DNA from: Leeia oryzae DSM 17879
GTDB lineage: Bacteria > Pseudomonadota > Gammaproteobacteria > Burkholderiales > Leeiaceae
Assembly: GCF_000376945.1 (NCBI RefSeq)
Contig: NZ_AQXU01000025.1
Coordinates: 873,982-937,981, forward strand
DNA: 64,000 nt
Direction: 5' to 3'
Of the stretch, positions 60,656 through 62,685 are shown piece after piece. A program made the position numbers and the translations under genes. Numbering within the stretch: the stretch's first letter is position 1; the number at the start of each line of letters is the position of its first letter. The notes under the pieces are model-generated. The model worked only from the letters and a program-made list of their open reading frames with translations, did no database searches and was not told the origin of the DNA.

Positions 60656-60746
60656 TTAGACATTAATTCAAATGTAATTTAATAAATTATATGAATAAGT
60701 GTCTATTTTATGTATATATATGCAGTTATTGTCTAATATTGGACAT
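60656..60746. promoter_or_regulatory. Cluster of TTAGACAT-type motifs upstream of the class II gene
   Basis: TTAGACAT at 60656-60663 matches the motif in front of the downstream leuA. A variant GTGTCTAT lies at 60699-60706, and 60729-60746 holds TTGTCTAATATTGGACAT, an inverted pair (TGTCTAATA/TATTGGACA, one mismatch) overlapping the end of the LysR gene. The 140-base gap is also very AT-rich. A shared regulator for both synthase genes is suggested. Confidence 0.5.
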
Positions 60747-61668
60747 CGCAAAGTCCGCTGCAGTCAAAGTCCTTCCAGTTTCTGGCATCGTCAATAAGCA
60801 GTTTGCTCAGCATACGGGCTGCGGGGCCAGTGGCCTGCTTGGCAGAGGCAATCAGGTACAGCGAAATGGTGCGTTCACGACCATGCCGTAGCGGCAGCGG
60901 CTTGAGCCTACCCTGCAAAAAGTCTTCAACGATCAGATGTTTGGGCAGCCAGGCAAACGCCAGCCCAGCCTTTACCATGTCGATGGAGGTTTGCGGGTAA
61001 CTGACCGTCCAGCGCTGCTTGGCTCCCAGCCAGCCAGAGTCGCGGGGATTTTGCGTACCAGAATCCCGCACCACGGACTGGGTATGTTCCAGCAGGTCAT
61101 CGCTGGTGAGGGCTCGTCCCAGATGATGCAAGGGGTGTGCTGGCGCTGCGGAGGCTACCAAAGTGGCATCCAGCAGTTTTTCTCCCAGATAGCCGGTGGG
61201 GATATTGGTAGCAATCACGATATCGGCCTGACCGGTGGTAATGGCTTCATCCGCCCCGGACATCACCACTTCATGCACTTGCAACAAAGTGTTCGGACAT
61301 TCGCGGGCAAAATTGGACAACGCAGAAAACAGAATCGTGCTCGGGAACAACGCCTCCACCGCTATATGCAATTCGGCCTCCCAACCCTGTGCCAGCAAGG
61401 CAGCATGTTGTTCCAGCCTGGCCAGCCCGTCCACCAGCGGCTTGGCATGCCGTAGCAAGGTGGCCCCGGTTTCCGTGAGCATCATCCGCCGCCCTTCCTG
61501 TGCCAGCAAAGGGACACCGATCTGCTCCTGCAGCTTGGCGATGGTGTAACTGATGGCGGACTGACTGCGGTGCAAATGTTCAGCCGCCTGGGCAAAGCCA
61601 CCGGTTTCTACCACGGCTTGCAAGACACGCCATTGCTCTGCACTGGTTTTGGGAAGTCTTAACGGCAT
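60733..61668 (-). CDS. LysR-family regulator upstream of the synthase genes
   Basis: A 311-residue LysR protein. Helix-turn-helix at about 20-45 (TGGFAQAAEHLHRSQSAISYTIAKLQ) and an effector domain from about 95. The ATG at 61668 gives the standard N-terminus. It is co-directional with, and upstream of, two isopropylmalate synthase genes, so it may control leucine synthesis as LeuO or LrhA-like proteins do elsewhere. It is also divergent from the small-peptide genes, 166 bases away, which could be alternative or extra targets. Confidence 0.86.
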   Translation of the reverse strand: MPLRLPKTSAEQWRVLQAVVETGGFAQAAEHLHRSQSAISYTIAKLQEQIGVPLLAQEGRRMMLTETGATLLRHAKPLVDGLARLEQHAALLAQGWEAELHIAVEALFPSTILFSALSNFARECPNTLLQVHEVVMSGADEAITTGQADIVIATNIPTGYLGEKLLDATLVASAAPAHPLHHLGRALTSDDLLEHTQSVVRDSGTQNPRDSGWLGAKQRWTVSYPQTSIDMVKAGLAFAWLPKHLIVEDFLQGRLKPLPLRHGRERTISLYLIASAKQATGPAARMLSKLLIDDARNWKDFDCSGLCDVQY

Positions 61669-61834
61669 GATTGATCAACTTTTTGGATTAAATTGACCAG
61701 TATTTTACGCTTTTTTATCACTTCAATGGATGGAATAATGCATCCATACCGTTAGTGCACTAAATAAAAGTCTGCTAACGATTCACAGCGGTACTAACTG
61801 CTGCGCTATTTCAACTCATACGAAAGACCGAACC

Positions 61835-61957
61835 ATGAAAACTTTGATTGCTTCCCTCGTTGCCCTGATGACGCTGGCTGCTGCCGGTACGGCTTCTGCC
61901 GAAAATCACAACCACGATGATTATGTGCGTGACCACATCCAGGCATTTGGCCGCTAA
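61835..61957 (+). CDS. Small exported peptide, copy 1 (HNHDDYV family)
   Basis: A 40-residue protein, MKTLIASLVALMTLAAAGTA followed by SAENHNHDDYVRDHIQAFGR. A Sec signal peptide with an ASA|E cleavage site should release an 18-residue mature peptide rich in histidine and aspartate. Its neighbour encodes the same protein with one substitution (L8 to F). Of 17 codons that differ between the copies, 16 are synonymous, strong evidence that both are real genes kept under selection. The His/Asp cluster could bind metal. I know no described family that matches. It is divergent from a LysR gene. Confidence 0.8.
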   Translation: MKTLIASLVALMTLAAAGTASAENHNHDDYVRDHIQAFGR

Positions 61958-61998
61958 GACTGCAAACATCATTTAAACGTATTGATAAAGGACTGACC

Positions 61999-62121
61999 AT
62001 GAAAACCCTGATCGCTTCATTTGTTGCCCTGATGACCCTGGCCGCAGCCGGGACGGCTTCTGCAGAAAACCACAACCACGATGACTACGTTCGTGACCAT
62101 ATCCAGGCGTTTGGTCGCTGA
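61999..62121 (+). CDS. Small exported peptide, copy 2 (HNHDDYV family)
   Basis: A 40-residue protein identical to copy 1 except F8 for L8, starting 41 bases after it. The mature part ENHNHDDYVRDHIQAFGR is completely conserved while the DNA has drifted at third positions, so the duplication is not recent. GATAAAGGA precedes the ATG. A strong terminator follows at 62167. The two copies are probably co-transcribed. Confidence 0.8.
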   Translation: MKTLIASFVALMTLAAAGTASAENHNHDDYVRDHIQAFGR

Positions 62122-62166
62122 TCATCGTATTGCCTGATACGTCACCAGACGGATCGGGTTGGACAC

Positions 62167-62222
62167 AAGCCACACCACCATGTTCCCTGCTCTCCTCAGG
62201 GGTCATGGTGGTGTGGCTTTTT
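62167..62222 (+). terminator. Strong terminator after the peptide pair
   Basis: AAGCCACACCACCATG (62167-62182) and CATGGTGGTGTGGCTT (62204-62219) form a perfect 16-bp stem, followed by a T run (62218-62222). It lies 46 bases after the second peptide gene. Confidence 0.92.
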
Positions 62223-62448
62223 GTATGACCCAAGATGGGTAGCTGGGAGGCATGCGTTAGTTGTAGTAAAGCCCTACGTGCTTCTGATGCAGGCGGATAC
62301 TTTCAATCGTTCAAAGAATGCACAGAGGTTTTGGTGCCGGAAACGATAGCCGTGACATGATGAAGAAATGTCAAATGCACTTGCCAAGGTAGTACATTCA
62401 CCCTAGTCTTGAAAGGGCTGGCAAACTGAGCCAGAGAAAGAGAAAATC

Positions 62449-62685
62449 ATGACAACCAAACTTTTTTTAGTACTATCTGTCATTGCTCTCGGGTATTCAT
62501 TTACCTCTGGTGCTGACACATTACCCCTACCGCTTCCAGAAACCATCGCAGGTTGTGCTTGCGCACCAGCTCCGCATCAGCGGGAATCTCATAACCACGA
62601 CGATTACGTGGCAGACCGCAAACTTGCATTTGGTGTTGAACCACCGATTGCTAATACGGACAGTAAGTCCGGTGACGGCAAATAA
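62449..62685 (+). CDS. Longer member of the small exported peptide family
   Basis: A 78-residue protein with a signal peptide (LFLVLSVIALGYSFTSGA) and a central ESHNHDDYVADRKLAFG that matches ENHNHDDYVRDHIQAFG of the two short peptides at 12 of 17 positions. Before the core is a proline-rich segment with CAC cysteines (LPLPLPETIAGCACAPAP), and after it a hydrophilic tail. The shared core with different flanks argues for a functional motif. It has its own leader region after the terminator of the pair. Function unknown. Confidence 0.72.
   Translation: MTTKLFLVLSVIALGYSFTSGADTLPLPLPETIAGCACAPAPHQRESHNHDDYVADRKLAFGVEPPIANTDSKSGDGK

Follow-up and report, generated by a model that had tools for sequence, protein, structure and literature searches.

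What can be said of very small exported peptides that resemble no catalogued family, and what would set their expression? Gene callers often overlook exported peptides this small, and a family with no relatives seldom comes with a function that can be tested. The question is raised by positions 61835-62685 of the window (the whole 64-kb stretch of DNA analysed here), where, as the original prediction described, two 40-aa ORFs and one 78-aa ORF share HNHDDYV-x5-AFG and are predicted to be exported by Sec.

Window genes and selection on the peptide

61835..61957, + strand: 40-aa predicted exported peptide, copy 1; signal peptide ends ASA; predicted mature part ENHNHDDYVRDHIQAFGR
61999..62121, + strand: 40-aa predicted exported peptide, copy 2; mature part the same as in copy 1
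62167..62219, + strand: terminator-like hairpin closing array 1; 16-bp outer stem, then a T run; -41 kcal/mol, z=-7.1
62449..62685, + strand: 78-aa predicted exported relative; internal core ESHNHDDYVADRKLAFG; also has CAC and an acidic tail

The preproteins of copies 1 and 2 read MKTLIAS[LF]VALMTLAAAGTASA followed by ENHNHDDYVRDHIQAFGR, giving a predicted mature part of 18 residues which is net acidic and contains three His and no Cys. Ribosome sites are plausible for the window ORFs, with AAAGGA ahead of copy 2. The 78-aa product carries a hydrophobic N terminus of its own and matches 11 of the 15 core positions, a count that none of 200,000 shuffled versions of the mature part reached, and a genome-wide profile search detected it at E=7e-6.

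Eighteen codons distinguish copy 1 from copy 2, namely 16 silent sense codons, the stop (TAA/TGA) and one Leu8/Phe8 change; codon comparison thus showed that the earlier description of a pair one residue apart despite 16 silently changed codons was exact. The Leu8/Phe8 change sits in the signal peptide, and the mature 18 residues are identical. By the Nei-Gojobori method there were 17 synonymous and 1 nonsynonymous differences on 29 and 91 sites, respectively (neutrality P=4.5e-10), and the mature part alone gave 7:0 synonymous:nonsynonymous differences (P=6e-6). Such silent-heavy divergence (17:1) indicates that selection acts on the peptide itself, and it is strong evidence, from the codon differences between the two copies, that both are translated and that the peptide is under purifying selection.

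Copies in the genus and look-alikes elsewhere

The genus sample consisted of three genomes: the own genome (G000), G001 and G002. Besides the 2+1 genes of the window, the own genome has three tandem copies at a second locus (C24, L014; array 2), reading MKKLIASVLA[IL]ATLAIAGTASA-ENHNHDDYV[RQ]DHLTAFGR. Conservation of the core in another genome was found in the congener G002, whose seven copies form arrays of three and four, all in the interval that also houses the window array, between a 2-isopropylmalate-synthase-like (leuA-like) gene and parB. They read MKK[IV]IAIVASVLALGAAMTASA-ADNHNH[DE]DYLAQK[QK]QAFGK, and preproteins are 40-41 aa across the arrays. No peptide gene was found in G001, either at the parB locus or elsewhere in the genome. 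H-N-H-[DE]-D-Y-[VL]-x5-A-F-G is kept in every copy; none has lost His-x-His or the Asp, and the short ones all end in a conserved AFG[RK].

Between the two G002 arrays (L021:7560-7755) there is an open stretch that by eye looks like the end of an AraC-type regulator, with its C-terminal helix-turn-helix (...ERARQLLKQTGLGVMEVCVACGFESSTYFARAYRQRFGQSPR); it may be left over from the rearrangement by which the array was doubled.

Outside the genus, 399 genomes of the order and 369 of the class gave only weak, unrelated or signal-peptide matches, and the 78-aa protein used as a query across the order found no convincing relative. A profile search of ~85,000 species genomes found no relative, and a relaxed core pattern gave two matches in them, both within large unrelated ORFs (transposase-like and heparinase-like by eye), which were dismissed. 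Viral, phage and plasmid sets contained no family member, and a text search of the literature for the motif found no paper. A search of Neisseriales had been proposed, but the family was not found across that group: in the searched genomes all copies come from two species within a single genus. This is a lower bound on its range, because neither of the two collection-wide scans recovered that genus, and close relatives of the window may be missing from the collections.

Searches of Pfam, NCBIfam and PHROGs yielded no match above cut-off (the best reached 12-17 bits and lay mostly in the signal peptide), in agreement with the earlier statement that no known family fits. NCBIfam NF040554 (mini_HHHH, HHHH-motif protein) resembles these peptides in being very small and exported and in having a His motif. 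Membership in it was rejected at 15.2 bits against a cut-off of 40, over residues 1-27 only and mainly signal peptide, and no NF040554 member over cut-off occurred in 250 genomes of the order. Separately, five weak NF040554 matches were seen in one genome (G129:C1; L060, L068, L069), two of them 3.7 kb apart, which suggests another small, dispersed His-motif family. In G083, the exported Cys/His-rich protein L016 starts ADNHKHDAQHEHMHAHHH, is copper-storage-like by eye and resembles the G002 peptides at its start; as an analogue beginning ADNHKHD it was rejected, with no Pfam match and E=0.0025, which is put down to chance.

The conservation within the arrays could reflect secreted signalling, in which an 18-residue pheromone would have a receptor, extra copies would raise the dose and a LysR promoter would couple it to chemical stress. 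The genes are tandem and multicopy, the mature sequence of copies 1 and 2 is invariant while silent sites have strongly diverged, and the conserved AFG[RK] end has no metal-binding reason. However, no receptor, processing or transporter gene accompanies the arrays in the neighbourhoods examined, the range is genus-restricted and the 78-aa relative holds the core within a longer protein, and we consider signalling distinctly unlikely. Antimicrobial or bacteriocin-like peptides directed against competitors would also be small, exported, tandem, genus-restricted and variable in copy number, but this reading is highly improbable, since the mature part is net acidic with three His and no Cys, no immunity or export gene lies near the arrays, and the mature sequence is conserved between copies, not diversified.

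The array promoter and its probable LysR regulon

60733..61668, - strand: LysR-type regulator, 311 aa, divergent to array 1; Pfam HTH_1 5e-19, LysR_substrate 2e-24
61674..61688, + strand: LTTR recognition box ATCAACTTTTTGGAT (ATC-N9-GAT, T-N11-A); same position in 4/4 array promoters
61701..61719, + strand: conserved element TATTTTACGCTTTTTTATC, probably the activation site/-35 region; CGCTTT in fixed register in 13 promoters
61717..61731, + strand: second ATC-N9-GAT box at ~-22.5, possible ABS' site; exact in 3/4 array promoters
61731..61739, + strand: extended -10 promoter TGGAATAAT; TGNAATAAT in 4/4 arrays

Every array begins at one conserved promoter, composed of a T-N11-A box at about -65, TTTTGCGCTTTTTTAT and an extended -10. 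The four array promoters align over ~80 bp as ATC-N9-GAT, a fixed gap and CGCTTTTNNAT-N10-GATGNAATAATNC. Counted from a start site assumed to be 7 nt past the -10 hexamer, the centre of the ATC-N9-GAT box is at -65.5 in 4/4 arrays, the classical LysR recognition position; the second box has one mismatch in C24 (ATT-N9-GAT). With up to three mismatches allowed, the promoter pattern occurs ahead of arrays at two sites in G000 and two in G002, beyond the arrays once in each of these genomes (3 mismatches each), and nowhere in G001. The 78-aa gene has no array promoter ahead of it.

Hairpins lie 3′ of the window array, the two G002 arrays and array 2 (z = -7.1, -4.8, -3.3 and -6.8, respectively), three of the four with a T-rich tail; the array-2 hairpin is without a T run. 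The 5′ leader of array 1 (61750-61780) contains CGTTAG..CTAACG, which folds better than shuffles (z=-3.0). A 5′-UTR hairpin GTTAG..CTAAC as a common feature was rejected because GTTAGC..GCTAAC of G002 is not significant, and only the window leader is.

A 78% homologue of the window LysR is present in G002, not adjoining the arrays there, and the closest LysR of G001, which has no peptides, is only a 33% paralogue; the LysR homologue and the peptides are missing together from G001. With the G002 homologue unlinked to the arrays, adjacency to lysR was set aside as evidence and the promoter was tested instead. Homologues of 52-56% were found in nine genomes of the order (G311, G121, G282, G191, G116, G252, G366, G158 and G194), sitting divergent to pirin genes or a flavodoxin-fold (FMN) azoreductase. 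Pfam confirmed Pirin, Pirin_C and flavodoxin-fold domains in the neighbours, with pirin in L081, L082 and L086 and an azoreductase-type target in L087.

The nine LysR/target intergenes were gathered by LysR similarity alone. CGCTTT in fixed register is common to 13/13 promoters (4 arrays and 9 pirin/azoreductase), T-N11-A is at the same spot in 12/13 (8/9 of the pirin/azoreductase ones, L080 being the exception), and TGNAATAAT is found in 5/9 pirin/azoreductase promoters. With these nine intergenes as its sole training set, a weight matrix placed the array promoter at the top of the 64-kb window with 41.7 bits (next -5.0) and at the top of L014 with 72.5 bits (next -10.9). In L021 the arrays scored 57.0 and 49.6 bits, followed by 13.9 (opposite strand, same array promoter) and -3.8. 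Among dinucleotide shuffles of each array promoter, 0/1000 reached the observed score. In the reverse test, a matrix trained on the arrays recognised 9/9 pirin/azoreductase intergenes (0/300 shuffles each). In addition, a pirin gene (Pirin_C_2 domain) immediately follows array 2 in the same orientation.

Since the promoter is common to the arrays and the LysR-homologue loci, the peptides would fall into the regulon of pirin and azoreductase, and we regard this membership, under LysR control, as well supported by the promoter comparison. The LysR-pirin and LysR-azoreductase pairs of the order encode a LysR homologue (52-56%), and their promoter is essentially that of the arrays, in the same register; the difference is that their target is an enzyme gene and not a peptide array. 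That the same promoter elsewhere drives detoxification-type genes also speaks against signalling. The peptides had been noted beside a LysR gene and parB, and only the first of these neighbours gained in meaning, because the promoter is present at all arrays, even far from lysR. parB is probably a mere neighbour, and a functional link was rejected, as the second array is elsewhere and the parB locus of G001 has no array.

Probable inducer and candidate functions

In E. coli, YhaJ, the best-studied relative, is divergent to the pirin-like yhaK, hydroquinone induction of yhaK, ybiJ, ygiD and the likewise pirin-like yhhW needs YhaJ, and the YhaJ box is TCA-N7-TGA, which in yqjF is TCAAATTTTTTGAAGA (PMC5031710; PMC11739112). 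The array-2 box TCAAATTAACTGA fits TCA-N7-TGA exactly. Judged by its sequence the window LysR is YhaJ-like, being 34% identical to YhaJ (122 bits); its G002 paralogue L053 is 39% identical (198 bits). The window LysR is therefore not supported as a strict YhaJ orthologue, L053 being a better YhaJ match within the genus, and the inducer may differ from that of YhaJ. The YhaJ regulon and the arrays both have a LysR divergent to its target, pirin targets in homologous loci and a T-N11-A box of the TCA-N7-TGA kind, whereas the E. coli yhaJ-yhaK intergene has no TTTTGCGCTTTTTTAT promoter. By analogy, the inducer is likely to be a quinone, a hydroquinone or a related aromatic electrophile.

The YhaJ regulon also includes a small-protein target, YbiJ, which is reported to be hydroquinone-induced (PMC5031710). 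The peptides might likewise protect the envelope through a membrane or envelope partner, as is thought for DUF1471 proteins like YbiJ, with no metal or quinone chemistry, and a single-sequence AlphaFold model, one continuous helix, is consistent with this. That model, however, was made from one sequence, includes the signal peptide and says little about the mature part. The peptides are unrelated to YbiJ in sequence, no DUF1471 (YbiJ/BhsA) domain was matched in them by Pfam, and no partner gene is conserved, so that envelope protection of this kind appears unlikely.

If cut at ASA, the own-genome short peptides would begin E-N-H-N-H, a predicted Xxx-Xxx-His N terminus. An N terminus of this type (ATCUN) can bind Cu(II) or Ni(II). 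In G002 the predicted cleavage is ambiguous (between ASA and ADNH, or between SAA and DNH), and this ambiguity, together with the internal core of the 78-aa protein, indicates that the invariant part is HNH[DE]DY and AFG, not the free N terminus. PcoB, an exported copper protein of ATCUN type with a disordered His-rich N-terminal domain, would share an ATCUN-like Xxx-Xxx-His with the peptides as predicted, although PcoB is a large outer-membrane protein and here a free 18-mer has an N terminus that is only predicted (PMC12509749).

The peptides could belong to a response to metal only, where LysR would sense metal or redox state, the peptide would be a Cu/Ni chelator and pirin, a metal-dependent cupin, would be linked through metal. 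H-x-H-[DE]-D and the predicted N terminus would suit it, and catechols, enterobactin among them, are reported to turn Cu(II) into toxic Cu(I), which could join both stresses (PMC9426971). We consider it quite improbable, since homologous LysR genes have pirin and azoreductase as neighbours instead of genes for metal transport or efflux, and no copper-type regulator or efflux gene adjoins the arrays.

The family is in our view real, uncatalogued and narrowly distributed, with a regulatory context that is strongly supported at the level of DNA and a function that is unproven. Among the roles first listed (metal binding, signalling and protection of an envelope partner), the data favour a stress response and do not fix its chemistry. 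Their copy number, their small size and the regulon suggest that the peptides protect stoichiometrically, as ligands of a metal or a quinone. Counting against the ligand reading, the short peptides as predicted have no Cys for quinone capture, and the AFG end, which neither metal nor quinone binding explains, could serve a partner or receptor.

On balance we tentatively favour inducible cassettes for an exported His-based metal or quinone ligand, under a LysR promoter within the pirin/azoreductase regulon. The genes, the selection on the peptide, the common promoter and the pirin beside array 2 are read from the sequence, and on this footing one LysR-controlled promoter would drive 2-4 tandem preprotein genes (40-41 aa), ending at the terminator-like hairpin. 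We infer that the YhaJ-like LysR would sense a quinone, hydroquinone or related aromatic electrophile. The preproteins would then pass through Sec and be cleaved by signal peptidase, so that a peptide of 18-19 residues rich in His and Asp (ENHNHDDYV...AFGR or (A)DNHNHDDYL...AFGK) reaches the medium or the periplasm; the many copies would give a high dosage. The peptide would work stoichiometrically outside the cytoplasm, as a His-based ligand for a redox-active metal (Cu/Fe/Ni) or by reacting with quinone, and meanwhile pirin (quercetinase-like) and azoreductase would act inside the cell. A stronger version, a new extracytoplasmic defence in which quinone-type electrophiles trigger a short exported His/Asp peptide, mass-made from multi-copy genes, which disarms redox metal or quinone outside the cell and is paired with intracellular pirin and azoreductase under one LysR, is somewhat doubtful.

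Through the common operator, an orphan peptide family is linked to a regulon whose chemistry is partly known (quinone/aromatic stress, pirin), and this leads to direct predictions of inducer, regulator and phenotype. It appears that the operator was reused for a new peptide gene that then multiplied, and the arrays may offer a handle on what the pirin-LysR pairs of the order respond to.
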